DNA of 42,149 nt from a virus: IMG/VR virus record IMGVR_UViG_3300009405_000008, positions 1 to 42,149 of that record. One strand, written 5' to 3'. This document shows positions 1 to 40,300 of this stretch, one piece after another. A model generated the notes under the pieces. The model was not told where the DNA came from. It saw only the letters and a list, made by a program, of their open reading frames with translations, and ran no database searches. Within the stretch, counting starts at the first letter, position 1, and each line of letters opens with the position of its first letter. The position numbers and the translations under genes are program-made.

Positions 1-585
1 CGTTACCACACTGCGGTACGGGAGTACATCCACTCCAACCTCTACGACCCCAACCGAGCGCGGGCTGAGCAACACAATCGCCAAGTGCTGCTGGACTCGA
101 TTTCCAGGTTTGCAACGCCTAACGATTGGGTAGTCGTATTCGACGCAGACGAGCACCTGTACGAGTTCGGCACCAACGTGTTACGTGAACGTTGTTCGCA
201 CGTTGTGTGCCGTCTCTATGAGGTTCACATAACACCAGAGGACGAAAACGAATACTACAGGTACCGCCAATGGGTTTCTCCGCGCAAACTCGATATACCA
301 TTCTTCTATCGTTGGCATGATGGGCTACGATTCGAGCGGCCAGACCAACGCATCTTGACGCCCGCTCACGAAGGCGGTATACGTTGCGGTTACATCAAAC
401 ACTGGAGTAAAGGTTTCGCTCCGTGGTTGTACCAGCGCAAAGTCGAGTACTACCAACAGTGGCCCAAGTACGCGGAGAAGTGGGCCTTACGTGATGGCCT
501 CGCAGTCAAACACGATATGTGCGATGACTTTGGTGCACCACTAATCAAATGGGAGGATGCAATTGCCAACGATAGTCCAACCTGA
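1..585 (+). CDS. Glycosyltransferase family 2-like protein, C-terminal part
   Basis: The reading frame is open from base 1 and ends at TGA 583-585. The translation has the GT-A features of small phage family 2 glycosyltransferases: a segment YDPNRARAEQHNRQ just before the catalytic region, then VVVFDADEHLYEF at about 133-165, where DADE (142-153) is the metal-binding DxD-type motif, and later a HWSKGF segment. Such enzymes transfer a sugar from a nucleotide-sugar donor, but the acceptor cannot be read here. The N-terminus is missing at the window edge; the open frame starting at 42007 supplies it if the ends are joined over the shared CGTTA, giving about 240 residues. The gene overlaps the polymerase start by 29 bases, which suggests co-transcription. 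The family call is good; the role (modifying phage DNA, phage proteins or host surface) is unknown. Confidence 0.75.
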   Translation, partial: RYHTAVREYIHSNLYDPNRARAEQHNRQVLLDSISRFATPNDWVVVFDADEHLYEFGTNVLRERCSHVVCRLYEVHITPEDENEYYRYRQWVSPRKLDIPFFYRWHDGLRFERPDQRILTPAHEGGIRCGYIKHWSKGFAPWLYQRKVEYYQQWPKYAEKWALRDGLAVKHDMCDDFGAPLIKWEDAIANDSPT

Positions 586-2878
586 TGGACCTGAAGACGC
601 ATCAATTGTCGTGATCGGCAAAGCACCAGGTAATGACGAGCTACTCGCTAACAAAAACTACGTAGGTTACACCGGCCAACTGTTGTTCGACAAGATCCTC
701 GCACCGAACCGTATCTACCGGCATGATTGCCTACGTATGAACCTATACTGGGAACCACTTGGAGGTGACGACAATGCATGGAAACGACTTGATGATCCGT
801 TCAAATACGGTCCCCAATGCGACACTCTCATCAAAAGCTATCCCCGACGACTTATTATCGCAGCTGGAGAAGAAGCGTTCAATTATCTTACCGGCGAATC
901 TGGTATTTCGTCTTGGCGCGGATCGATATTCTATTCCGACGAATATAACTGTCCAATTATGCCAATGATCCAACCCGCAGCAATTATGCGGGACTACACA
1001 ATCCTCCATCTGTGTCGCCTCGATGCAAAGAAAGCGAGGTTCATCTATGACAATCCGGATTTCCGTCCACACCCACATACTGTCACGCATTACGCATCAC
1101 TACTCGAAGAGTGTGGATCTCAGGATGGAGCTATACGCGCTTTACTCAATCGTGCCGAGGCTTACGAAAGCGCACCCGTGTTATCGTTTGATATCGAAAC
1201 TCGTGGGCACGCAATGTCTTGCATTGGCTTCGCGCAGAACGCATCGGAAGCTATCGTATTACCAACTGATGAAACTCTACCTATTGGTGCCCGCCTCCGC
1301 GCTATGCGAATGGTTGCTCACCTGTTGGATCAGCCGATGCCAAAGGTTGCACAAAACCTCGACTTCGACTGTCAACACCTTGCCCGACTCTATGGAATAG
1401 GAGTCCGAAATGTATGGATGGATACAATGGTGGCGCACGCTTGTGTGGAATCCGAGTTGTCGCATAGTCTCGCAACGCTTGTCTCCATATATACCGCTCA
1501 TCCATTCCATAAGGACATGGACAAGACTGGTGCTGAGTATTGGCGCTATTGCGGTCTTGACTGTTGCACGACCTATGAGGTGGCTATGGCACTTACACGC
1601 GAGCTACACGATAAGGGAATCCTAGAGTTCTTCCAATCACAGGTAACAATGCCCGTCACCAAAACGTTGGTACGTATGGAATGGACCGGCGTACGAATCG
1701 ACGAGGGAGAAAGGAAGCGACTACGTGATCACTTCGAGCAAGAGGCGGAACGCGCTACGGAAGACCCAGCACTCGGGGGCATTAACCCAAAGAGCAGCCA
1801 ACAAGTACTCGCCAAGCTCGCGGAAATGGGGGCTACTCCTCGTGCGCAAGGAAAGGTTACAACGGGCAAAACGGCTCTCAAATTGCTTCGGGATAAAAAT
1901 CCCAAAGTACGGCCATTTGTCGATGCTGTCCTTGCTACACGAGCGGCTCGTGATTCGGTATCTAAGAGTCTTAAGTTTAAACTCGCAACAGATGGACGAA
2001 CCCGATGCCAATTCAAAACAAGTGTGACCAAAACAGGGCGTATATCGTCGACAGCAGATACGTTCAATTGCGGGACCAATTTGCAGAATCAGCCAAAGCG
2101 CGTCCGAAGTATGTACGTTCCCGACGAAGGCCTGGTCATGTGGGCTTGCGATGCATCACAAATAGAAGCTCGACTTACCGCTGCCCTATCTGGCGACGAG
2201 GCTTACGTGCGTGCATATATGGACCCGGACATCGACCTCCACGCGGAGACGACCGTACGTTTGTTCCATGCCAGAGGTGTGACGATGGATATTGTTCGCG
2301 AATTGATCCCCGGCAACAGCGACGAATTTACGTGGCGAGACGCAGGTAAACGAGCGCGTCACGCAATGAACTACGGCATCGGGCCTCGTAACCTAATGGA
2401 GAACATGAATGCCTACGTCGAAGGCCTCAACATCACATTTAGAGAAGCTAAGTATTTCATTGAACAGTTCAAAACGATGCACCCAGGTGTCGTTCGATGG
2501 TGGGACGAAGTCATGCGCCGGGTTCGAGTTAAACGCATACTTGTCAGTCCCTTCGGACGCTACAGACATTTCCTTGATCGTCTTAGCGATTCCAACAGGA
2601 ATAAAATCGTTGCACACCTACCTCAAGGAATGGCCGCAGATCACATCAATAAAGCTCTCGTGCGAACTGAACGAGACCTAACTCGTATACCCCGCGCAGA
2701 CGTGCTGATCCAAGTACACGACGAAATCGTAGGTCAATGCAGAAAGGAGGACATAGATGAAGTACGCAAGATCGTAGTGGGCGCAATAGAAGCACCCATG
2801 CCAATCGAACTTGGTGGAAAACCACTCATATGCCCAGCAGACTTCGCTTACGGACACAACTGGAAAGAGTGCAAATAA
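557..2878 (+). CDS. Family A DNA polymerase with N-terminal UDG-like domain
   Basis: Probable replicative polymerase, 773 residues. Residues about 1-165 resemble the family 4/5 uracil-DNA glycosylase fold (VIGKAPG, then YVGYTGQLL). Two usual active-site motifs look changed: GEAPG reads GKAPG, and the later HP(S/A) motif reads QPA, so glycosylase activity is doubtful. A DnaQ-type 3'-5' exonuclease follows, with D212/E214, N267/D269 and Y331xxxD335. The polymerase domain has motif A at D532 (DASQIE), motif B R594-K598-H602-Y606-G607 and motif C H721-D722-E723. The residue matching E. coli Phe762 is His602. ATG 557 is the first in-frame start after a stop at 542, but GGGAGG (551-556) abuts it; TTG 563 would have ideal spacing and loses only two residues. 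The preceding glycosyltransferase gene overlaps it. Confidence 0.95.
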   Translation: MQLPTIVQPDGPEDASIVVIGKAPGNDELLANKNYVGYTGQLLFDKILAPNRIYRHDCLRMNLYWEPLGGDDNAWKRLDDPFKYGPQCDTLIKSYPRRLIIAAGEEAFNYLTGESGISSWRGSIFYSDEYNCPIMPMIQPAAIMRDYTILHLCRLDAKKARFIYDNPDFRPHPHTVTHYASLLEECGSQDGAIRALLNRAEAYESAPVLSFDIETRGHAMSCIGFAQNASEAIVLPTDETLPIGARLRAMRMVAHLLDQPMPKVAQNLDFDCQHLARLYGIGVRNVWMDTMVAHACVESELSHSLATLVSIYTAHPFHKDMDKTGAEYWRYCGLDCCTTYEVAMALTRELHDKGILEFFQSQVTMPVTKTLVRMEWTGVRIDEGERKRLRDHFEQEAERATEDPALGGINPKSSQQVLAKLAEMGATPRAQGKVTTGKTALKLLRDKNPKVRPFVDAVLATRAARDSVSKSLKFKLATDGRTRCQFKTSVTKTGRISSTADTFNCGTNLQNQPKRVRSMYVPDEGLVMWACDASQIEARLTAALSGDEAYVRAYMDPDIDLHAETTVRLFHARGVTMDIVRELIPGNSDEFTWRDAGKRARHAMNYGIGPRNLMENMNAYVEGLNITFREAKYFIEQFKTMHPGVVRWWDEVMRRVRVKRILVSPFGRYRHFLDRLSDSNRNKIVAHLPQGMAADHINKALVRTERDLTRIPRADVLIQVHDEIVGQCRKEDIDEVRKIVVGAIEAPMPIELGGKPLICPADFAYGHNWKECK

Positions 2879-2936
2879 CTACGAACGAACGGAGGTACCC
2901 TATGAGTCAACCGCAACGCGTACCGAAAGAAAAGGA

Positions 2937-4217
2937 ATGGCTGAACAACATGACTACTTGCGGAAGTACATGCTGTATACGGACAATCAGGAATCTCCAG
3001 CGGTCTTTCATCGGTGGGTGTCGCTCGCAACACTTGCCACACTTATGTGTAGGCGCATATGGTTAGATCGAGGACCGGAGGGAATACTGTACCCAAATCT
3101 GTACGTTGTTCTGGTAGCAGGGAGTGCTCTTTGCAGAAAGAACACCGCGATTGCTTTGGGAACCCGGTTGTATTATGCAGTGCGTACACGAAGAGAAGAC
3201 AACGGTCTTGGAGCTGGCCTCCCGAATGCGATCTCTGGCAAAGTCACTACCGCAGCTCTGCTTAGCAGTATGAGCGAGGTCGGCCTCGACACAATGCACT
3301 CGGACGCCTCGGGCAGTGAGGGAGACAAGATTTCCCGTCCAATATGGTTACTCGGCGCGGAACTCGGCGTACTCGTTTCCCAACAGGCACAAGCTGACGG
3401 ATTTGTGGATCTTATCACAGAGGCCTACACAGGAGAAAATAACCTTGAAAATGTCACGAAAACTGCGGGAGTATCTCAAGTATACGATCCAAGCATTAAT
3501 CTCCTCGGAGGAACCACTCCTGCCTGGATTGCCGAGAACCTCACGTCAAACTTGTTCAACCAAGGCTTCAGTGGGCGGTGTATCTTTGCGTTTGCGGAAA
3601 AACCCGATAAGAAAATCGCGTTCCCGGAGTTTAGCGCAACGCAAAACAGACTCCGCGATGAGCTTGTAGACTTCCTATACGAACGATCCTTCATGGGCGG
3701 AGAGATGCGTATGTCGCATGGTGCCCGCGACTTGTTCGAGCATTGGTACATGAATCGTACCGCGTCCATAGAGGATGAGCGAGTACAGACAGGCTTCTTC
3801 GGCAGAGAGCACGCACACGTATTGAAGGCTGCAATGTTGATCAGTGTCGCACGGCGTGACGACTTGACGATTCGTAAACGTGACTTGGAAGACGCTTTCC
3901 GGTGTCTTAAGCCAATAAAGGAGGGATTTCAGAATGTATTCGGAGATGTATCCTACGCAGACGAACGTACCAGCAATCGGTACCTCGCTTCGATGCTCCG
4001 TAAAAACGGTGAGATGAGTCGTACCGAGTTGTTGCGTAAGGTACAGTACAGGATGAGTAGCAAGGAACTTGATGCTACACTTAACACCCTTGCGGAAGCG
4101 GGCGTTATCAATGTGACTGACAAGCGTCGTGGAGCGCGGGGTCCAGCAACGAGGGTTTTTTCTATCAAAGGCGAACGTTCAGATTCTGAACATTTACAAA
4201 AGGAGCAAACTGTATGA
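2937..4217 (+). CDS. DUF3987-like P-loop ATPase
   Basis: The product resembles phage DUF3987-type ATPases that sit beside replication genes. A typical N-terminus (DYLRKYMLYTD...FHRWVSLATLATLMCRRIWLD) leads into YPNLYVVLVAGSALCRKNTA, which occupies the P-loop position but is degenerate: it lacks a classical GxxxxGK(S/T) and has CRKNT instead. A basic winged-helix-like C-terminus (MSRTELLRKVQYRMSSKELDATL) may bind DNA. I place the start at ATG 2937 (426 residues) because the family domain begins right there; the frame is open further upstream into the polymerase gene. Oddly, the strong Shine-Dalgarno GGAGG (2891-2895) is spaced for ATG 2902 in another frame. The gene lies 58 bases after the polymerase and overlaps the next gene as ATGA. 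A helicase-loading or helicase role is inferred from position only. Confidence 0.75.
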   Translation: MAEQHDYLRKYMLYTDNQESPAVFHRWVSLATLATLMCRRIWLDRGPEGILYPNLYVVLVAGSALCRKNTAIALGTRLYYAVRTRREDNGLGAGLPNAISGKVTTAALLSSMSEVGLDTMHSDASGSEGDKISRPIWLLGAELGVLVSQQAQADGFVDLITEAYTGENNLENVTKTAGVSQVYDPSINLLGGTTPAWIAENLTSNLFNQGFSGRCIFAFAEKPDKKIAFPEFSATQNRLRDELVDFLYERSFMGGEMRMSHGARDLFEHWYMNRTASIEDERVQTGFFGREHAHVLKAAMLISVARRDDLTIRKRDLEDAFRCLKPIKEGFQNVFGDVSYADERTSNRYLASMLRKNGEMSRTELLRKVQYRMSSKELDATLNTLAEAGVINVTDKRRGARGPATRVFSIKGERSDSEHLQKEQTV

Positions 4218-4900: not shown

Positions 4901-5047
4901 TTACTTGAAGATCGCCTTAGCAACCCTCGTGAGAATGGATACAACAAAATCGTCTTTCTTACTACTTGAAAGACCCGTAAGTACGTCGAGAATCTTCAAC
5001 CCCGCCAACACCATAATCCCAAATTCTGCACTACTCAATCCTTCCAT
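4901..5047 (-). CDS. Small 48-residue hydrophobic protein
   Basis: This short frame starts at ATG 5047 behind AAAGGAGG and ends at TAA 4901, eleven bases before the next start. The product opens with MEGLSSAEFGIMVLAGLKI and ends in ...VVSILTRVAKAIFK. Two amphipathic or weakly hydrophobic helices separated by a short SSSKKDD linker are visible. It sits between the TM/coiled-coil protein and the last late gene, where small lysis genes often lie. The strong ribosome binding site and tight spacing support a real gene; a role in lysis is only inference. Confidence 0.65.
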   Translation of the reverse strand: MEGLSSAEFGIMVLAGLKILDVLTGLSSSKKDDFVVSILTRVAKAIFK

Positions 5048-5104
5048 CCGTGCCTCCTTTGTAAACCCACGTATTCGTGGATACCGAAGTAGAAATCATT
5101 TATC

Positions 5105-5398
5105 TCAGTGTTCGTGGTTCAAGATTGTTTCCATATCGCTCCAAAATAACGGACGTTTTTCGTAAAACTCTTTCGTACGCTTCTCCTTGTCCTCTGCGTA
5201 TATAAGTAGTTTCTCCACATTCTTATCAACTCGGTCTAACTTCTGCCGGTCGAGTTGTCGATCCGCTTCCAACACATCCAACCGTTCGTCGCATTCGTTG
5301 TACGCGTTCCAGCCAATCGTAGCGACACCGATGACCAGCGGCATCATAATACCCACTGCCCATTGAACCCATGAACGAGCGTTTTCACCGTTAGCCAT
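5105..5398 (-). CDS. Single-TM, coiled-coil protein (spanin- or holin-like candidate)
   Basis: The 97-residue product has a short polar N-terminus (MANGENARSW), one membrane segment at about residues 10-28 (VQWAVGIMMPLVIGVATIG), then a charged, helical region rich in D, R, K and E with heptad-like leucines (LDVLEADRQLDRQKL). This N-in, long-coil arrangement is typical of inner-membrane spanins and of some holin-like lysis proteins of phages. ATG 5398 overlaps the stop of the tail fibre gene as TGATG and follows GGAGG at good spacing; a GTG one codon earlier is possible. No peptidoglycan hydrolase is adjacent, although an M15 peptidase lies in the early region. Lysis assignment is plausible but unproven. 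Confidence 0.65.
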   Translation of the reverse strand: MANGENARSWVQWAVGIMMPLVIGVATIGWNAYNECDERLDVLEADRQLDRQKLDRVDKNVEKLLIYAEDKEKRTKEFYEKRPLFWSDMETILNHEH

Positions 5399-12296: not shown

Positions 12297-15200
12297 TTAG
12301 ATTTCGACACTGCGTGTCTTCGACAGTCTAGCTGCCAATGCTTGTCGGCGAAGAATCTCTTCCTGAGTCAATCCCGCATCAGGCGTGTTGTTCACAATCG
12401 GTCTTGGCGTTATCCCACCTCCAAGATTATTCGAAAACTCATCGATAAACGGAGACAGTGTGCGGCGAACTCCCGTATTTCCAGCAGTACTCGCAGCAAT
12501 GTCTACACCAAGCAAGTTTAACAACTCATCGAGTCGTCCACTTCTCTGTGCCTCGTTTGCAAGGCGCTGCTGGAGTGTATCCTGTCCTTTGAACTGTCCC
12601 GTAATACCGGCTTCTTGGAAGGTATTCGCTGAATCAACCGCACGTTGGTCCAGTGTAGTGTAACGCTGCCCACCCTGTTCAAATGCCACACGTCCCAGTG
12701 CCTGCTCTCGCGCAAGTGCGTCAGCAGCATTGAATTGTCTGTTTTGTTGTCCGAGCTGTTCGCGACCGAGCGAAAACTCAGGACGACCCGTCTGCGGGTT
12801 AATAATCCTACCGGTCAACTCTTCTCGTGCGAGTTGCTGCGAATCACCAAATTGTCTTCCCTGCTGTAGCCGCCCTTCACGTACTTCATCGAGCTGCCTA
12901 CTCGCCAACGATTGAGTCGGACCACTACGCGGATCGGTCTGTATCTGGCCGGTAAGCTCTTCCCGTGCCAAGTTTTGACTCGCACCAAACTGTTGTGCCT
13001 GTTGACCTCGTGCAGCTACCTGCTCCTCTAATGTGCGATCAAATTGATCCCCCTGACGTGCTCCTGCCTGCTGAGCCAGTGACGTGGTATACCTACCCGT
13101 CTGAGGATCATAGATACGACCAGTAAGCTCCTCGCGTGCAAGTTCTTGTCCCTCACCGAACTGACGCCCCTGCTGCAAACGACCTGCACGCTGCTCGGCA
13201 ATCGTCTGATCAAATTGGCCGCCCTGCTGTGCGAGTTGTCTCGCAGCTAACGATTCTGTCGGCGCACGGCCCGGACCTTGACCAAATATTTGACCTGTGA
13301 GTTGTTCTCTTGTGAGTTGCTGTCCTTGTCCGAATTGTCTATCCTGCTGCGCACGGTCTAAACCAGCTTGTGTACCAGCAAACTCAAGTTCAGCGCCACG
13401 TAAATCGAGGTTAAACCGATTCTGCTGTGTTTGCGCAGTCAGTCCGCGTTGAGCAGCAAGCTGTGACTCCTGCCCAAGAAACTCTCTCTGCAGCCGATTT
13501 TGTTCTGCTCCTGCTTCCAGCCGACCAATCTCAAGTCCACGATTTAGTGTACCTTCGTTGATTAAACGTCGTTGTTCTGCATCAAATTGGCTCTCTTGTC
13601 GACCACCAGCTACGTCAAATTGACGCTGACCTTCGAGTAATCGTTGGATATCAAGGTCTCGGTCACGTGTAGATTCGGTAATCAAACGCTGTCTCTCTGC
13701 CTGTGCTTGGTCTCCAGCAAACTGACGTTGCAACACTGCCTCACTTGCCTGTGCCCCAAGCTCTGCTCCACGAAGGTCTAACTGAAAACGGTTACCTTGG
13801 GTCGCGAGTGTCTGCCGTAGCTTACGTTCACGTTCCAACTCAGAGCGGTCCAAGCCAGACTCACTTCGTTGGAAACCTCTGTCAAGTGCTGCCTGACGGC
13901 CTTGCGCGTCTAAGGTTTCTGTCTGTAGCTCTGCGCGCGCGTCACGTTCTGCCTGCCCCTCTGAGGCTTGCTGCGCCAACTGCTTCGCCTGTATGGTATC
14001 AGTCCACCCCAGACCCGGCACCATCACCTTGCCAGCATCCTGTTCTCGAGTCAATCCCCTATCGAGACTGGCCAGCTGCGTGCGTGCCAGTCGGTCGGCA
14101 TCGGCCAGGGTCTCCTGTTGGGCCAGCTGTTGCGCTGCCAGCGTCTCATCATCACCAAAACGGCCCAAGGCTTGACTCCGTTGCATGGAACGGTCAAAAG
14201 CCGCTTGCCGACCGACCTCGGCACGGGCTAACTGGTTTTCCCCAAACTGCGCAGTTTGCAAGGTCGTCTGCAGATCTCTGGCCGCCTGTGCGTCTTGAGT
14301 TTGCTGAGCCAATTGCTGTGCCTGCAGCGTCTGCGTCCCTCCGGGGTTGACCGTCCTAAAACCAAACAGGTCATTGACCTCCTCGGGGGTAGGCTGTCGT
14401 CCCGTCTGCTTGGTAAACGCCTCCGCTACCTGTCTCTCTACGGCTGCCCGTTCATCCGGCGTTGCAAAACCCTCCCTGGCGCGGAAGTTCTGAATAGCGT
14501 CTCGCATACCTAATGAAGCAGCTGTGACCGCACCTCCACCTACAACACCCGTCAGTCCAGCCATCGTAGCACGTTCAGACAAATTTTGCTGTCGACCCGA
14601 GAGGCGGTTAGCTGCTTCTCGCGCTGCAATCTGCTCATCAAGCGCACTACGCTGTAGACCTTGACTACCCACCCGAGCGGCCGTCGCCTCTGCCAAGGCA
14701 TTGTTAGCTATACGCTCTTGCAAGTTGCGACCATACAACGCCTGCTGCTCTGCCGATGTCCTGGCAAGTACATTCTCGCCAAACTGCGCCGTATCTCTGG
14801 CCGTCTGAAAGCCTGCAAGGGCCGAGTCGCGTTCCGTCTGTGCGGTCGTGCCTGCCGTCTGCAAAGCGGTCTGTTGCGCAAAAGCTGCTGTATCTCTGGC
14901 AGTCTGATAACCAGCCAAAGCCATATCACGTTCAGTCTGTGCTGTATTTGCAGCCGTCTGAAATGATGTCTGTTGTCCAAAAGCTGCTGTGTCTCTTGCT
15001 GTCTGAAAACCTGCTAATGCAAGATCTCGTGCAGTCTGTTGTTCTCCGAGTGCTGTATCACGTGCGGTTTGCGCTTGCCTCTGAAGTAGATTCTCTCCGT
15101 ACTGCGCATCACGTGCTGCCTTCGCCTGTGTGCCTGCAGTTGCAAGCAGGTCACGTTGTAGCTGACGGTACAACTCATCCGACTGGGCCTCCTCGCTCAG

Positions 15201-27570: not shown

Positions 27571-28100
27571 AGATACCTTCCAGAAATTGGTTTTAGTTGG
27601 ACGTGGGCGTATGTCACTGTCACACAGTCCTGAGGGGGAACCGGGTGTATCCCTACGTGGTAGATCGTCGTACCAAACGCTAAGTCGTGTAAAAACAACA
27701 CTTTACGTCAAGGTGACAACCTGGCACACACTACGTCGTACCTGGAGACAATTTGGCAGCTACGACGAAGTATCAAGTGTGTACAACGTCGTACCGTTCA
27801 ATGTTGAACGATTTTTGCTGTGTGCTAACGTCTTGATTGTAAACAAGTTACGGCAAATTGGCGTAAGTGTGTGTTTTTACTGAAGTTACATCCTGGGTGA
27901 CAAAATGGCATACGAGGTGCAAAATTTCCATATTTCTCAGAATTGAGACCCTTGTCTCATTGTTGCGAAACTACGATATATCGTAACAAGTATACCTTTG
28001 TTCACCAAATGGAAAAAACTTACACGCCTACACAAAAAAACTTGACACACAGCGAGCTATACCATATATTACTTGTAACCTCAAACAAGGAGAGTACAAC
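27571..28100. promoter_or_regulatory. Divergent control region between late operon and rightward gene
   Basis: No gene is visible in these 530 bases. The contents are three direct copies of CGTCGTACC (27666-27674, 27734-27742, 27787-27795); an inverted CGTTCA-ATGT-TGAACG at 27795-27810; TGAGAC-CCTT-GTCTCA at 27944-27959; a perfect 14-bp palindrome TACGATATATCGTA at 27972-27985; and a rightward sigma-70 promoter at 28042. I could not identify a good sigma-70 promoter toward the late operon, so the three repeats may mark sites for a phage-encoded activator of it. Confidence 0.6.
28042..28070 (+). promoter_or_regulatory. Sigma-70-type promoter
   Basis: TTGACA (28042-28047), a 17-base spacer and TATATT (28065-28070) match the consensus closely. 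It lies about 30 bases before the start codon at 28101, with AAGGAG in between. Confidence 0.8.
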
Positions 28101-29445: not shown

Positions 29446-29901
29446 CTACAAACCCAACTTTGCGCGCATCTCCGCCGTGTACTTTTCGGAGTACTCCGCG
29501 TTTTCTGGGTCGTTTCGCATGGCGTTGAATGTGTCCATAGCGCCAGCGTTGAACGCCTTTTCGAGCGTCCTCTTCCACGAGCCATAACCGGGACCAGATC
29601 CGCCACGAGCGGGGTCAATCGACAAGAACACGAGCGCGTTGTATCCCTTTGCTAAGCGTGTAGCAGCGTCCGGTACCGCCCCAACATCGACATTTAACGT
29701 CGCGCAAGCCTCACGCACATCAGCGTCAATTTCAGCACGCAGCTCTTCGGTCACGTCAACGCCGTCTGCAATCTCAACCCAAGGACTCTCGAAGTCGAGC
29801 AACGCTTTGCCCGACTTGTCTGTACGTCCGACATACGGCCTCGCGCTGATAGTGTGCGTCGCCTTTTCGATCAACGTCTGCATTTCGGCTTTCTTCGCCA
29901 T
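29446..29901 (-). CDS. Hypothetical 151-residue protein with consensus promoter
   Basis: No family recognised. The product starts MAKKAEMQTLIEKATHTIS, contains an acidic helix (DVTEELRAEIDADVREACATL) and ends in a helical segment (WKRTLEKAFNAGAMDTFNAM...EYSEKYTAEMRAKLGL). It is soluble and acidic, with no signal peptide. Codon use is more GC-rich than the surrounding AT-rich region, and it is bracketed by a perfect consensus promoter (29971) and a strong terminator (29388), so high early expression is likely. A host-interaction role is a guess. Confidence 0.75.
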   Translation of the reverse strand: MAKKAEMQTLIEKATHTISARPYVGRTDKSGKALLDFESPWVEIADGVDVTEELRAEIDADVREACATLNVDVGAVPDAATRLAKGYNALVFLSIDPARGGSGPGYGSWKRTLEKAFNAGAMDTFNAMRNDPENAEYSEKYTAEMRAKLGL

Positions 29902-29970: not shown

Positions 29971-29999
29971 ATTATACAAAAGTTTTTCTGCTATGTCAA
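29971..29999 (-). promoter_or_regulatory. Consensus sigma-70 promoter P1
   Basis: Read leftward this is TTGACA, 17 bases, TATAAT, an exact consensus. It stands before the 151-residue gene. About 20 bases upstream are shared with P2 (ATAATC.TGTTGTAG), as is CTTTTGTAT.ATT across the -10. Confidence 0.92.
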
Positions 30000-30013: not shown

Positions 30014-30178
30014 TTATTTTGCAATTTCTTCGCATATCTTTTTTGCCGTGTTCAATTCCTGTTTACATTCATACAGCATTTCAAGCAATTTAGAGTTTTT
30101 TGACATTCTCGCGTATTGTTCCACATCCTCAATAGATCGTTCCAAGCGGTCAACGTGACGCAGCGACATTTTACTCAT
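30014..30178 (-). CDS. Small 54-residue helical protein
   Basis: This frame starts at ATG 30178 behind AAAGGA and ends at TAA 30014, just before P1. The product is hydrophilic and helical (MSKMSLRHVDRLERSIEDVE to ELNTAKKICEEIAK), with a probable coiled coil. It has its own near-consensus promoter P2, whose surroundings match P1. It looks real although short; no family is recognised. Confidence 0.7.
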   Translation of the reverse strand: MSKMSLRHVDRLERSIEDVEQYARMSKNSKLLEMLYECKQELNTAKKICEEIAK

Positions 30179-30218
30179 TGCGTTTCCTTTCGTTGTAGTT
30201 CGTTATGGGTTACTTACA

Positions 30219-30247
30219 ATCATACAAAAGTATTTATATTGTGTCAA
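30219..30247 (-). promoter_or_regulatory. Near-consensus sigma-70 promoter P2
   Basis: Read leftward this is TTGACA, 17 bases, TATGAT, before the 54-residue gene. Shared upstream and -10 flanks with P1 point to duplication of the promoter module. The two leaders also share ACNACAACGAAAGG at the ribosome binding site. Confidence 0.88.
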
Positions 30248-30916
30248 CCCCTACAACACGATTATTTTCATATACAGCAAAAAAACTTACACAAGCTCGC
30301 TTGCCTATACAATTATATTACACTTCATTTTCGACGCACAAACGTGATCGCCCGCAACCCATTGTAAAACTTGGACTTAGCGTATGAGCCGTTTAAATGT
30401 GTGCGTCAAACCCCCTCTAAGAAACATAAAAACGTGAACAGTAAATCATAACTCGTTTAAAAACAACAACTTAAAACTCTTCAACTTTTCATTGCTGCTG
30501 CGGGCGAGCCTGTGGAGCAGGTCCAGGGCAAAGAAGTGTAGTATATAATACATATATGTATATATATATGCTTAAACCCCCCTGCGCGCCTACTCACACC
30601 TACACCCCCGCATGAATTGTTAATAGTTGCACAGTTTTTAACTCGAATAAAAACAACAACTTACATTTTTTAACTGTTCATGTTAGCCGTGTTTTTTGTT
30701 TCCTACACTGAATAGCCCACGCCAAGTTGTTGTTTTTCAACAACTTATGAAGAATCACGACCTAACCCGTGTATTTACAACAACTTAACCTCAAACGCCA
30801 AAAAGCAATTTCACAGAAAATCCCTTGCATACAATAAACCCAATAAAAACAACAACTTACAAAGAAACAAACCTAAAGCCAACAAATACAACAACTTAAG
30901 GTGCAATCACCTTTTA

Positions 30917-31017
30917 ACTCTTCACGAAACCCGCTCCAAAATCCAATAGTTTAACATTGAACCTTTCGACATTGAGACAAACAACTTTTCGTGAAGAGTT
31001 TCAATTTCGTGAAGAGT
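30917..31017. repeat. TTTCGTGAAGAGT repeats next to a -10 box
   Basis: Direct copies lie at 30987-30999 and 31005-31017, 18 bases apart; an inverted copy lies at 30917-30929. The last copy ends 19 bases before TATAAT (31036-31041). No -35 exists at 17 bases from that -10 (TTGACA at 31021 is only nine bases away), so these repeats may be activator or operator sites overlapping the -35 area of the main rightward early promoter. Confidence 0.6.
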
Positions 31018-31214
31018 AATTTGACAAGCCCGGTATATAATGAACGCATAGCAATAGATGTGCCAAGCGCGCAAAAGCGCAAAGGAAAATTTTTCCCCTC
31101 TGCGACACCTTTGTCTCACCCATCGCCTAACTTATTGCCCACCAACAACTTACAACCCGGAAATCTTTTCCCTTGCCTATTTACCCCTCAATAGTTACCT
31201 TTAACTATAAGAAA

Positions 31215-31293
31215 AACAACAACTTAGCACACACATTGCCCTGCACAATTCCGAATCGTTCGGAAAATGTTTCTTGTGTGCTAAGTTGTTGTT
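31215..31293. repeat. 19-bp inverted repeat with nested palindrome
   Basis: AACAACAACTTAGCACACA (31215-31233) and its exact complement (31275-31293) flank 41 bases that hold TTCCGAA-TCG-TTCGGAA (31249-31265). It is the end of the CAACAACTT array and stands 44 bases before the first rightward start codon. Confidence 0.85.
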
Positions 31294-31337
31294 CAAACTT
31301 GAACGTCCACAATTCACCACAAACAACGGAGCACACA

Positions 31338-31559
31338 ATGCCAACATCCCGCACACAGCAACTAATCGACCACGCAATTTCCGACACACCGCGCATCGTA
31401 CTCCAATTTCACCATCAAGACCAGTTTAACAACTACTACACAATTGAATATAACACACTTTCACGAGAGGAGACCGAATTGTACCTAAACGCACACGCCA
31501 GAAAATTCTACTTCGGATGGCATCGCCGACACGGCTACACCGCAATGCACAAGGACTAA
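31338..31559 (+). CDS. Hypothetical 73-residue early protein
   Basis: First gene of the rightward early operon. ATG 31338 follows CGGAG at good spacing. The product (MPTSRTQQLIDHAISDTPRIVLQFHHQDQ..., ending WHRRHGYTAMHKD) is polar and rich in His, Tyr and Thr. No family recognised. The frame is open further upstream, but that part covers the inverted repeat and is not likely coding. Confidence 0.65.
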   Translation: MPTSRTQQLIDHAISDTPRIVLQFHHQDQFNNYYTIEYNTLSREETELYLNAHARKFYFGWHRRHGYTAMHKD

Positions 31560-32036: not shown

Positions 32037-32233
32037 ACCCAAAACGCACACAACGAACCCGTACACGAACATTCAACCTACGAATCAACGAAGACGGCGT
32101 CCTATGCACCGTTGACGAACTCATAGGTCTACGCGCAAACATAGACCGCGCACTGAGCCAATCCACCCGCAAAGAATATTCGTTGTCCACAACACACAAC
32201 AACGTAGTTGCAATACAGGAGCTCGCGCTATGA
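32030..32233 (+). CDS. Hypothetical 67-residue basic protein
   Basis: Product starts MNNPKRTQRTRTRTFNLRIN, strongly basic, followed by an acidic helix (TVDELIGLRANIDRALSQS). ATGA overlaps with both upstream and downstream genes show tight translational coupling. The frame extends upstream to 31985 but the overlap start is more natural. No family recognised. Confidence 0.6.
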   Translation: MNNPKRTQRTRTRTFNLRINEDGVLCTVDELIGLRANIDRALSQSTRKEYSLSTTHNNVVAIQELAL

Positions 32234-32661
32234 ACGTCGACAATCTTGAACTCACCACCAAACTCGACACCTCAACGCCAAAGACCAAACGCATCGCAAT
32301 TGAATACCTCCACGGCAAACAACGCGAGATCGCAGACCTAATCCTCCACCTACAAGACGAACTCGACAAAGAAACTGGCCCACGATACGAAGTCGGCGAA
32401 CGAGTCAAGTTCACCTACGACAAAACCCTAAACAAACTCGGTCGTGTACTCGACGTACGATTCGCCCACGGATGGGAGTATCGACTCGAATACAAAGGAC
32501 TAAACGCAAAGCGAGCTTTATCGCACGCCTGGTTCCGCGAGGACGAAATTTGGCTCTCACTCGGAATACCCCGCGAACCAACGAAGGCACGCAAATCCCG
32601 TGAAACCGCCGAACAACGTCGCACCCGACAACTTCGAATCCTGGAGGCGTTTACAGCATGA
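32230..32661 (+). CDS. Hypothetical 143-residue protein with small beta domain
   Basis: The product has an N-terminal helical part (RIAIEYLHGKQREIADLILHLQDELDKE), then a segment like a small SH3/KOW-type barrel (YEVGERVKFTYDKTLNKLGRVLDVRFAHGWEYRLEY...FREDEIWL), and a basic C-terminus. The barrel-like motif suggests RNA/DNA or protein binding, but this is pattern-based only. ATGA overlaps connect it to both neighbours. Confidence 0.6.
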   Translation: MNVDNLELTTKLDTSTPKTKRIAIEYLHGKQREIADLILHLQDELDKETGPRYEVGERVKFTYDKTLNKLGRVLDVRFAHGWEYRLEYKGLNAKRALSHAWFREDEIWLSLGIPREPTKARKSRETAEQRRTRQLRILEAFTA

Positions 32662-32726
32662 ACACAGGAGGACTATTTCTCCCAAGCCCGTACTGGGCTA
32701 AACTGAAACAAAAGGAGACACACACC

Positions 32727-32927
32727 ATGCCCGATCCGCCCACTCGAAAGCTTCGCACAAGTGTCGACCTCGACAGCGACACCCACGCCAAGTTTATCCG
32801 CGCTGTCGAACGACGTGGCTCCACACGCGGCCTACGCGCTCACGTACTACGCACCCTCGTCGAAGTGTTCCTACTCACAGAACAAGGTTCCTACAACGAA
32901 GCCAACAACCTGTTACGGCGCATATGA
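32727..32927 (+). CDS. Ribbon-helix-helix-like small protein
   Basis: The 66-residue product has a basic N-terminal strand (RKLRTSVDLDSDTHAKFIRAV) followed by two helices, as in CopG/Arc-type repressors. AAAGGAG lies ten bases upstream of ATG 32727, which I prefer; an earlier in-frame ATG at 32658 overlaps the preceding stop and would add 23 residues. A phage regulator role is likely if the fold is right. It could bind any of the repeat families in this window. Confidence 0.55.
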   Translation: MPDPPTRKLRTSVDLDSDTHAKFIRAVERRGSTRGLRAHVLRTLVEVFLLTEQGSYNEANNLLRRI

Positions 32928-33112
32928 CACCAATTACTTTACACCCACCTGAAACACGCGCACGCCGTATCCTACGATACACCACCAACCTGATGTTCCT
33001 TTGTGCCGGAGTTGTCGCGGTATACCTCGTATTCACTCACGCACCGCGTATCTACTACAACTGGGCCATCAAACCATACGTAATTGAAACCATAGAGGAG
33101 TACACTCAGTGA
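32924..33112 (+). CDS. Small single-pass membrane protein
   Basis: The 62-residue product has a basic N-terminal part (ETRARRILRYTTN), one hydrophobic segment at about residues 22-40 (LMFLCAGVVAVYLVFTHA) and a polar C-terminus. Positive charges before the segment suggest an N-in orientation. ATGA overlap upstream and GTGA overlap downstream place it firmly in the operon, directly before a glycosyltransferase. Confidence 0.65.
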   Translation: MTPITLHPPETRARRILRYTTNLMFLCAGVVAVYLVFTHAPRIYYNWAIKPYVIETIEEYTQ

Positions 33113-34017
33113 ACATCCTACTTACCAACTTCGCCATGACCGCACCAGGCGGCACCGAGCGATGGACGCAAACACTCGCAGCCGAATTCAAACAGCTCGG
33201 CCATACCGTCCATCTATGGACACCACATCCCGGCATCGAATCCGCAGCACTCGACGACATCTGCGTCCTCCACAAGCGTCCACCAACCACCCAGCGATTC
33301 GACATCTGCCTCATCAACCACAACAAATGCCTCCAATCCATCCACGGCAATCCCTCGCCAAAGATCTTCACCAGTCACGGACCACACAACACGCTTGAAC
33401 TTCCCATCGAAGGAGCCGACGCATATGTGGCCATATCTGAAGAAGTTCAACAAGTCGTCAATGCCCACGGATTTCGCGCAACCGTGATCCGTAATCCAAT
33501 CGCACCCGAATTCTTCGACGCACCTCCGCCATCTCCTTTCGTCAATTTTGTCCTGTACCTCACAAAAGGCAACTACCCGGACTTTGGCCTTACCCTCGGA
33601 CAAGTGTGCGACAACCGTGGCTTTTACCTCGACATAATCCACTCCGAGCGGTATCCATCCTGTGCAGTGGCGCACCGCATGGCAGCAGCGGACATCGTGG
33701 TCACCATTGGCCGTGGCGTACTCGAAGCCCTCGCCAGTGGACGCAACATAATCGTCGCAGACGAGCGCACACCGAATGGCCCACTCGCTGATGGGTTTCT
33801 CCTACCGGAACACATACGCCCGTGGCGTAAACGCAACTTCGCGGGGCGCACATCCCACATCGAGCCATCCGCTGTCGATCTTAACTCCTGGTTCGATATG
33901 TACGACCCCGCACATTACGAACCATTCCACAAATACGCCCTCGACAACCACCATGCCTCCTCCATCGCAAAGAGCTACCTAAAGCTCGCAGAAAGGACAA
34001 TCGCAAATGCCAGCTAA
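33109..34017 (+). CDS. GT-B (family 4-like) glycosyltransferase
   Basis: The 302-residue product starts MNILLTNFAMTAPGGTERWTQTLAAEFKQLGHTVHLWTP, the Rossmann strand, GG.E loop and first helix typical of GT-B glycosyltransferases. A linker IRNPIAPEFF leads to the C-terminal nucleotide-sugar half, with a conserved-looking acid (GVLEALASGRNIIVADERTPNG) at the E-x7-E-like position. It is shorter than usual family 4 enzymes (about 350-400). The start is GTG 33109, overlapping the previous stop. It is the second of three GT-like genes in this genome; the substrate is unknown. Confidence 0.8.
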   Translation: MNILLTNFAMTAPGGTERWTQTLAAEFKQLGHTVHLWTPHPGIESAALDDICVLHKRPPTTQRFDICLINHNKCLQSIHGNPSPKIFTSHGPHNTLELPIEGADAYVAISEEVQQVVNAHGFRATVIRNPIAPEFFDAPPPSPFVNFVLYLTKGNYPDFGLTLGQVCDNRGFYLDIIHSERYPSCAVAHRMAAADIVVTIGRGVLEALASGRNIIVADERTPNGPLADGFLLPEHIRPWRKRNFAGRTSHIEPSAVDLNSWFDMYDPAHYEPFHKYALDNHHASSIAKSYLKLAERTIANAS

Positions 34018-38694: not shown

Positions 38695-38961
38695 ATGCCA
38701 CGTGAACCGCTACCCGACGTACCTTGTCCTCACTGTTCGGCCATCATGGGCCGATACTTTGAAGGCTCCCGACTGTTTTGTACCCCCTGCCACGTTGTCT
38801 ACACCCCAGTAGAAATCACTATCGAAACATACAAACTTCTCAGTGAAAAGAGTATTCGTACGAGATGGTACCACCACACAAAACGCCCGGAGATGTGGGA
38901 TGAAAGTAAACGCGAACGATATCAAAATCCTTCCAAACCGCCAACGCACGGAATACAATGA
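38695..38961 (+). CDS. Small zinc-ribbon protein
   Basis: The 88-residue product has paired CxxC motifs (PCPHCSAIMGRYF and LFCTPCHVVY), a zinc ribbon, and a basic C-terminus (RTRWYHHTKRPEMWDESKRERYQ). GTG 38683 would add four residues and lie within the hairpin. Zinc ribbons of this kind bind nucleic acid or act as small regulatory adaptors; the specific role is unknown. The last 62 bases overlap the start of the methyltransferase gene. Confidence 0.65.
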   Translation: MPREPLPDVPCPHCSAIMGRYFEGSRLFCTPCHVVYTPVEITIETYKLLSEKSIRTRWYHHTKRPEMWDESKRERYQNPSKPPTHGIQ

Positions 38962-40300
38962 CTTCGACACAACGATTGGCCGCGCGTCCGATCTCGACGC
39001 CCTCAAAGCTATGGCTGACCACGACACTCGCATCCCCGCTTTGGTATCCCTTATGGACTCCATTGTTGAACATGGACTTATCGAAGACATCGTTGTGGAC
39101 ACCAAACTCGTACTCATTGCCGGGGAACGACGCACTCGCGCATGCCAACTCCTTGGCCGCATGGTTAATGCTAAATACCTAACCATTGAAGCAAAACAAA
39201 AGGAACCCCGAGATGACTTCGACCGATGGGGAATCGAACTTCACGAAAATATCGAACGAGATGCTCTTACAAAACCAGAGAGAGCGGTTGCGGTGGCGGA
39301 ATATCATCGCCTCCGCCAGTTGCGTACAGCCAAAACCACCACTGCTGACGAAAAACCCGCACGGCATGGCGTACGCGACACAGCCAAAGAGCTGGGTATG
39401 TCCGTTGGTAATGTTAGCGAAATGCAAAAGATCGCTAAGATTCTGGCACTTGCGCCACATCTCCGTTCTGAGACCAGCTATAAATCTATTGCAGATCGAT
39501 TCCGCAGGGAGGTAATAAATGCGATCCGAGCAGAGCAAGCACGACGCTCGTCTACAAGAGCTGCGACAAGTCTTCAACTCTGCGATACACTTTTTATTAA
39601 CGCAGATGGACCTGAGTACCTTCGAGGACTTGAACCAGACACAGTCGATTTCGTCTTTGCTGATGGGCCGTATGGCATCTCCGTCGACGCTACCGGAGGC
39701 TTTCGAACTCAAGGAGATACCAAACAATGGGACGATTCTCTTGAAGCTGCAACCGAGTTCTATCATCGGCTTGTGGGAAGTATCTCTCATGCATTACGTC
39801 CCGGTCGACACGCCCTCATCATGTGCGGGTGGGAACTCTGTCGATACATCAAACGACTCTGCGAACCCACCGACCTTACCTTCGACACCACTCTCCTCTA
39901 CTGGGACAAAGTAACAGCCGTCGCCTCCAAAGTACCCGCTTACAAAGGAGATGCCCAAATTGAAGAGATCATCCACCTCTACAAAGGCTCGCCGACATTT
40001 CCAGCGTCCATCGGCAGGAATCTTCTGCGCTTTACTCGATTGCAAAAACAGGCGTACCCGACGCAAAAACCACCAGCGTTGCTTGAACATTTGGTGCGAA
40101 AATTCACACATCCAGGTGAACTCATTGTCGATCCCTGCTGCGGCAGCGGTGGACTCGTTACAACCGCACTACACGCGAAACGGAGGGCAATAGGATGCGA
40201 CACAAATGCGAAAGCAATCGAACTGGCAAAACAGCTGTACCTGGACGCCGAGCAGCAAGGATCCGATCTGTCCGATTCGACGAACGAGCCCAAAAAGTAA
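38900..40300 (+). CDS. ParB-like/DNA methyltransferase fusion
   Basis: The 466-residue product joins a ParB-like nuclease domain (IVEHGLIEDIVVD, then IAGERRTRAC with GERR at 75-78) and an HTH-like middle (RDTAKELGMSVGNVSEMQKIAK) to an amino-methyltransferase. The order of motifs, catalytic first and SAM-binding later, is that of beta-class enzymes: motif IV DGPYGIS at 255-261, YPTQKP before motif I, and DPCCGSGG at 411-418. The catalytic DPPY reads DGPY here, which is unusual, and the HPTQKP motif reads YPTQKP. It may modify phage DNA to escape restriction or compete with host methylation. Start ATG 38900 follows CGGAG; the frame is open to 38843. Confidence 0.85.
   Translation: MKVNANDIKILPNRQRTEYNDFDTTIGRASDLDALKAMADHDTRIPALVSLMDSIVEHGLIEDIVVDTKLVLIAGERRTRACQLLGRMVNAKYLTIEAKQKEPRDDFDRWGIELHENIERDALTKPERAVAVAEYHRLRQLRTAKTTTADEKPARHGVRDTAKELGMSVGNVSEMQKIAKILALAPHLRSETSYKSIADRFRREVINAIRAEQARRSSTRAATSLQLCDTLFINADGPEYLRGLEPDTVDFVFADGPYGISVDATGGFRTQGDTKQWDDSLEAATEFYHRLVGSISHALRPGRHALIMCGWELCRYIKRLCEPTDLTFDTTLLYWDKVTAVASKVPAYKGDAQIEEIIHLYKGSPTFPASIGRNLLRFTRLQKQAYPTQKPPALLEHLVRKFTHPGELIVDPCCGSGGLVTTALHAKRRAIGCDTNAKAIELAKQLYLDAEQQGSDLSDSTNEPKK

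Follow-up and report, generated by a model that had tools for sequence, protein, structure and literature searches.

The window analysed here, a stretch of 42,149 nucleotides that makes up IMG/VR record IMGVR_UViG_3300009405_000008, represents a circular-mapping phage genome of approximately 42,144 bp, as judged from G004, which crosses both window ends and mismatches the window at one position over 34 kb, and from the overlap of the first and last five bases. Contigs almost identical to it also occur in 3300009332 and 3300009375. No convincing gene was found within 30178-31338. Leftward genes run from 30178 and rightward genes from 31338, so that transcription in the window diverges from this region; the gene-free stretch between oppositely directed genes, described in the original prediction, was therefore borne out. 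The flanking genes, the promoter motifs and the two distant genes considered below are as follows.

557-2878, plus strand: family A DNA polymerase with an N-terminal UDG-like domain, adjoining the DUF3987 gene
2811-4217, plus strand: candidate initiator, a DUF3987 helicase-like protein whose C-terminal part is predicted to form a winged helix
29446-29901, minus strand: small protein at the left flank of the region, present in all relatives
29971-29999, minus strand: leftward sigma-70 consensus promoter TTGACA-17-TATAAT, assigned by motif
30219-30247, minus strand: leftward sigma-70 promoter TTGACA-17-TATGAT, assigned by motif
31050-31065, minus strand: sigma-54-type -24/-12 motif TGGCACATCTATTGCT, reading leftward, the only such motif in the window
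32230-32661, plus strand: small protein at the right flank of the region, present in all relatives

The region had been described as carrying a ten-copy repeat array with five exact copies, and this description was confirmed. The nine-mer CAACAACTT occurs at ten exact sites between 30464 and 31291, eight on the plus strand and two on the minus strand, and is absent from the rest of the window; the 12-mer AACAACAACTTA has five exact copies. The mean number of CAACAACTT copies expected in the whole window was 0.35 after shuffling, and none of 100 shuffles reached ten. The predicted expectation of about 0.006 copies was close to the value of about 0.007 per 832 bp given by the shuffles. The array is thus real, whereas the nine-mer is not its unit: it forms the 3' part of a 25-bp element, here called A, of the form TAA-N6-TAAAAACAA-N4-TTA, and eight of the ten copies carry the TAA at positions 1-3, 12 bp before CAA. 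The N4 is constantly CAAC in the window. The A elements were scored with a position weight matrix (PWM) built from 50 sites of 13 relatives, the window being left out, and are listed below with their scores.

30449-30473, plus strand: A element TAACTCGTTTAAAAACAACAACTTA, score 32.8
30639-30663, plus strand: A element TAACTCGAATAAAAACAACAACTTA, score 33.5
30723-30747, minus strand: A element overlapping a plus-strand copy of the 3' half (30738-30746), the two jointly making a hairpin-like dyad, score 21.5
30763-30787, plus strand: A element TAACCCGTGTATTTACAACAACTTA with a degenerate core, score 14.1
30835-30859, plus strand: A element TAAACCCAATAAAAACAACAACTTA, the best match, score 37.0
30874-30898, plus strand: A element TAAAGCCAACAAATACAACAACTTA, score 21.8
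31128-31152, plus strand: A element TAACTTATTGCCCACCAACAACTTA with a degenerate core, retaining TAA and CAACAACTTA
31202-31226, plus strand: A element TAACTATAAGAAAAACAACAACTTA, score 26.6
31282-31293, minus strand: 3' half of an A element
27681-27888: second cluster (region II), with A elements at 27681-27705 (plus), 27826-27850 (minus) and 27864-27888 (minus), scores 29.9, 14.2 and 24.3

The relatives-only PWM found eight A sites in the window at a score of at least 20. At a score of at least 9, it gave 10 matches in the window, compared with 4 in total over 20 shuffled genomes. Since the regular expression behind the PWM had required both TAA and TTA, the sites of the relatives were collected again by the central TA[ATG]AAACA alone; 48 of 48 began with TAA and 47 of 48 ended with TTA. 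Region II contributes two strong copies and one weak extra copy, 2.7-2.9 kb left of the AT tract described below, and the A sites of the window are confined to these two intergenic regions. The segment 27571-28100 was noted as a second regulatory region, in which copies of GTCGTACC accompany the A elements. A sigma-70 promoter of the form TTGACA-17-TATATT precedes 28101, and TGGCATACGAGGTGC comes close to a sigma-54 motif.

The ends of A, TAAGT..ACTTA, are inverted around an A-rich core, with arms of 3-5 bp. Clear covariation between the arms was not observed (the observed sum was reached by 41 of 1000 shuffles), and A therefore reads as a double-stranded protein site. An RNA or single-stranded DNA hairpin was considered and rejected, on the same lack of clear covariation and on an Rfam search without a credible match. 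A perfect 19-bp inverted repeat (31215-31233 and 31275-31293) includes the 3' half-element at 31282-31293.

An AT tract among the repeats had also been claimed. It is present, and it contains the point of minimum stability of the genome: by nearest-neighbour energies, the 30-nt stretch at 30539-30568 comes to -25.3 kcal/mol, where stretches of this length average -41.7 (sd 3.1). Among 50-nt stretches, the one starting at 30529 is likewise the least stable in the genome. Around the tract, interleaved with A, lies a second family of short repeats of about 9 bp, here called B, whose version in the window is AACTCTTCA. When one mismatch was allowed, 6 of the 13 copies of AACTCTTCA in the genome fell in the 1.16-kb region; the exact B 8-mer by itself is only modestly enriched.

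30475-30491, plus strand: B iterons AACTCTTCA / AACTTTTCA, an 8-bp tandem on the left side of the AT tract
30539-30572, no strand: AT tract, candidate DNA-unwinding element, with the least stable 30-nt stretch of the genome
30672-30680, plus strand: B-like iteron AACTGTTCA
30916-30929, plus strand: B iteron AACTCTTCACGAAA
30987-31017, minus strand: pair of inverted B iterons, both TTTCGTGAAGAGT, spaced by 18 bp, right of the tract

Relatives were taken as contigs whose polymerase is 42-44% identical, or whose terminase is 50-55% identical, to that of the window; no terminase relative was found in genome_contigs. They have the same gene order as the window, and their intergenic DNA cannot be aligned with it apart from short shared elements. 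The occurrence of the same repeat in related phages had been proposed as a check. At the matching place, all relative loci with coverage carry 4-6 A elements ringing one alternating-TA tract, and in all six relatives tested this tract is the least stable 30-nt stretch. The AT tract and the two site families are conserved in every relative with coverage. The positions of A relative to the tract are nearly fixed within each of two groups, at about -141, -77, +90 and +165 in group 1 (G005, G006, G007 and G012) and at +118, +183, +247 and +321 in group 2 (G008, G009 and G011). Furthermore, most relatives with coverage have a second A site 0.9-2.2 kb left of the tract. The sequence of B is clade-specific, being CTTCTACAAA in group 1 and AACTTTGAAAC in group 2, and the tandem style of B in the window matches the tandem AACTTTGAAAC and CTTCTACAAA of the two groups. 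In the relatives B lies closer to the tract than A does and tends toward inversion across it; compared with these, B in the window is weaker and less symmetric.

In the four group 1 genomes, the flanking genes are co-directional across the tract and the divergence point lies further left. Therefore, a divergent promoter alone does not describe the region. Where transcription truly diverges in these genomes, a different array was observed, of 3-7 copies of TACTTGGTACTA, close to sigma-54-type motifs that are paired at a distance of 35 bp; in G005 the segment coordinates of the array are 4150 and 4972-5152.

The A element was also found to be associated with sigma-54-type promoter motifs. In 0.51 Mb of these genomes, TGGCAY-N5-TTGC occurs 37 times, compared with about 0.5 expected from base counts alone. 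Sixteen of the 37 lie at most 400 bp downstream of an A element, and these A-linked motifs, the one in the window excepted, are on the same strand as A at 18-19 or 47-49 bp from the nearest A centre; the pairs include near-duplicate loci, so that the independent number is about 14. The motif of the window (31065-31050, leftward) has A sites 75-149 bp upstream. In group 2 a sigma-54-type motif lies right of the tract and is likely the promoter there. In group 1, TTGACA-N17-TATATT-like promoters occupy the right side of the tract, and the A/sigma-54 pairs are found at the left locus. No sigma-54 activator domain (PF00158) was detected in the family, the sole match being in the unrelated contig G015.

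Two viral contigs, G015 (L159) and G016 (L163), each contain five A elements within about 0.5 kb. No protein shared with the family or between the two contigs was detectable, and DUF3987 was not detected in either. The A cluster of G015 is interleaved with ATGCAGTT repeats and lies beside the end of a gene of unknown family, whose product has a weak Pfam match to the MukF winged-helix domain (E 0.011). G015 was also seen to encode a reverse-transcriptase-like protein (529-1422) with a YADD motif. A clusters were absent from the named phages Mel-JY34, ctMlz233, ctLwi270, LS06-2018-MD01, Kuura and VS-ABTNL-3, which have a related polymerase and DUF3987. Cellular genomes were considered as carriers of A and set aside, because the pair pattern returned 29 stretches, with strong A-like sites only in L193. 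When the collection was scanned for AAACA-N5-TTA near sigma-54 motifs, the distances were mostly evenly spread, as chance would give, apart from minor accumulations at gaps of 5 and 27. In six other phage contigs (L242, L253, L267, L309, L316 and L346), AAAACA-N5-TTA stands exactly 27 bp upstream of TGGCAY-N5-TTGC; going by the motifs, this may be another pair of bender and promoter at fixed spacing.

The original prediction held that no typical initiator gene was obvious and that the binding protein would thus be new. On this point the analysis differs, as the DUF3987 helicase-like protein with its predicted winged helix is a candidate. The protein was found in all relatives, with both the domain and the winged helix kept. 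Its alignment, read together with the secondary structure of the model, displays a segment like a degenerate P-loop and, at the C-terminal end, a module of the order helix-helix-helix-strand-strand; the C-terminal domain covers about residues 390-455. As a whole the structure prediction is not reliable (mean pLDDT 44.7), but it is fair over the winged helix (about 62-79). Most fold matches were to winged-helix proteins; Orc1/Cdc6 and MCM chains matched more weakly, and no match fell below E 0.001. Beyond the winged helix the model was too poor for a fold to be assigned. The gene is not adjacent to the region but lies about 14 kb away along the circle. DUF3987 domains have been predicted to be helicases, with winged helices proposed for origin recognition (PMC5862659), and the SaPI Rep helicase recognises its iterons via its C-terminal domain (PMC7581432). 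We infer from the domain model that the winged helix of the DUF3987 protein reads B, and the initiator is likely this protein acting on B.

As for A, its copies are probably organiser sites, perhaps read by a host bender of the IHF/HU type. The E. coli IHF consensus is WATCAA-N4-TTR, and sigma-54 promoters are a classical IHF setting. The conserved half of A, AAACAA-N4-TTA in the sites of the relatives, has one mismatch to this consensus, A instead of T at position 3. A comes near to IHF sites in this half and in its occurrence at an origin-like region and at sigma-54-type promoters. It differs from them, in addition to position 3, in the extra conserved TAA upstream of the core and in the fixed CAAC, since a fixed N4 is not required of an IHF site. 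We hypothesise that, among single candidates, a host protein of the IHF/HU type is the likeliest ligand of A: one half of A comes within a mismatch of the consensus, IHF typically works at origins as well as at sigma-54 promoters, and A is shared by unrelated phages. A ligand encoded by the phage would be almost as likely. No HU/IHF-family gene was found in the phages (0 of 11 records). Opening at oriC, pSC101, R6K and RK2 is assisted by IHF or HU (PMC5043065). The small proteins at 29446-29901 and 32230-32661 are possible ligands. The RHH-like protein (32658-32927) was judged an unlikely ligand of A, since it is present in the window and group 1 and was not found in group 2, which bears A.

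Taken as a whole, the region is best read as a replication origin merged with an early-gene control region, in which the DUF3987 protein would act on B and the A elements would serve as organisers; we give this reading a probability of roughly 0.6, and we hold it a little more probable still that the segment at 30.4-31.3 kb is a replication origin at all. With its C-terminal winged helix the DUF3987 helicase-like protein would recognise the B iterons; the AT tract next to them would melt, and the helicase would then load and feed the UDG/family A polymerase encoded just upstream of its gene. Meanwhile, the A elements, including the ten CAACAACTT sites, would bend or wrap the region and would also serve the early promoters. 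Several observations count against this reading: promoters also occur in the region, A is linked in the relatives to promoters of the sigma-54 type, B is weaker in the window than in the relatives, and the DUF3987 gene stands apart from the region and is poorly modelled outside the winged helix. A change of GC skew at the site, which would support an iteron origin without being essential to it, had been suggested as a check, and it was not seen. The skew follows transcription, with no flip anywhere in the window and with flips in the relatives that lie away from the tract; for a bidirectional origin, this is at best neutral and at worst a mild argument against it.

The prediction of an iteron origin bound by a phage initiator survives in part, the origin being favoured by the conserved AT tract, the two site families and the co-directional flanking genes of four relatives, and the ten repeats being probably not simple initiator iterons, given that A also occurs at a second locus, at fixed distances from sigma-54-type promoters and in two unrelated phages. 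The view that they are true initiator iterons, bound directly by one phage protein (DUF3987 or a small conserved protein) with B secondary, is nevertheless the strongest competitor, though a doubtful one. No sequence of the region is better conserved than A, its TAAGT..ACTTA ends around an A-rich core resemble RepA_N and PLE iterons (PMC7145576), and DUF3987 and the two small proteins are found in all relatives. However, a RepA_N initiator (PF06970) was found in none of 12 records at E<=1, the two unrelated phages have A clusters without any common detectable protein or DUF3987, the placement of A at the second locus and at the promoters speaks against it, and it is B, not A, that changes with the clade, as is usual for iterons specific to an initiator.

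We regard it as unlikely that the region serves chiefly in transcription control, with A as operator, enhancer or architectural sites of early promoters, including sigma-54-type ones, and with the AT tract as a by-product. This would account for the A-linked TGGCAY-N5-TTGC motifs (16 of 37, nearly all on the same strand at the two spacings) and for the leftward sigma-70 promoters and sigma-54-like motif beside or within the region. It leaves unexplained why each genome has one tract of minimum stability, always amid the sites, and why, in group 1, clusters of A stand on the left of the tract and next to sigma-70 promoters. Moreover, the family encodes no sigma-54 activator domain. Far less probable is a partition or centromere-like site, or an array of operators for a repressor, or of stoperators like those known from cluster A mycobacteriophages: the sites are clustered, asymmetric and mostly co-oriented, and a ParB-N domain is encoded at 38843-40300, but this domain is fused to a methyltransferase, neither a ParA partner nor an integrase was seen among the genes examined, and stoperators are dispersed between genes genome-wide, whereas the A sites here occupy two intergenic regions.

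The preferred reading, an origin merged with early-gene control, describes a variant of the iteron origin, which is a known kind. The SaPI Rep/ori and the SCCmec Cch2 origin likewise have a helicase-type initiator whose C-terminal domain reads short iterons in a noncoding origin, and the SCCmec helicase is accompanied by a family A polymerase (PMC7581432); in contrast, the candidate helicase here is of the DUF3987 family, its gene stands apart from the origin, and the 25-bp A element is additional. The iterons to which RepA_N initiators bind are semi-palindromic and converge on a poly-A tract. The RepA_N plasmid and PLE iterons (pSK41, pTZ2162 and V. cholerae PLE), with their semi-palindromic form, A-rich core and clustering in a noncoding origin (PMC7145576), bear some likeness to A, whose TAA and TTA ends surround TAAAAACAA; the phages here lack a RepA_N protein, and the short arms of A do not clearly covary. 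In the phage lambda ori and iteron plasmids, iterons also lie beside an AT-rich unwinding element, often helped by IHF or HU (PMC5043065); they differ in that two site families are interleaved here, with B often inverted across the tract in the relatives, and an O-like or Rep-like initiator was not seen. Finally, A recurs outside the candidate origin at a second locus, and the candidate initiator is of the helicase type. Phage P4 is comparable in this: sites of one kind occur both in its ori and in crr, a few kb off, and a helicase-type protein is its initiator.

The most interesting part of the arrangement is the shared 25-bp A element, which is undescribed; a literature search for the motif letters returned nothing relevant. 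It can be used to search for regions of this kind, and it ties sigma-54-type promoters, DNA bending and phage replication together in a way that can be tested. We speculate, tentatively, that A is a portable cis element coupling origins with sigma-54-type early promoters across unrelated phage lineages, read by one common protein, probably a host DNA-bending protein, while the clade-specific B would mark each origin for the DUF3987 helicase initiator. The region also offers a concrete candidate origin and initiator for an uncultured phage family and makes origin recognition by a DUF3987 winged helix testable; in the literature consulted, DUF3987 proteins, which occur in phages and satellites, figure as predicted helicases only.

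Several further features were observed. The product of 38843-40300, in which the ParB-N domain is joined to an N6/N4 DNA methyltransferase, is kept in all relatives. A family 4 glycosyltransferase-like gene (33109-34017) stands among the early genes of the window, and its counterpart was not found in the relatives examined. At 14788-15039, a direct repeat lies within the gene for a 1173-aa structural protein; it is about 153 bp long and 76% identical, with an offset of about 99 bp. Moreover, contig L136 (IMGVR_UViG_3300028908_000029), with a GC content of 56%, contains an AT-rich island bearing many ACAATAACTTA repeats in both orientations.
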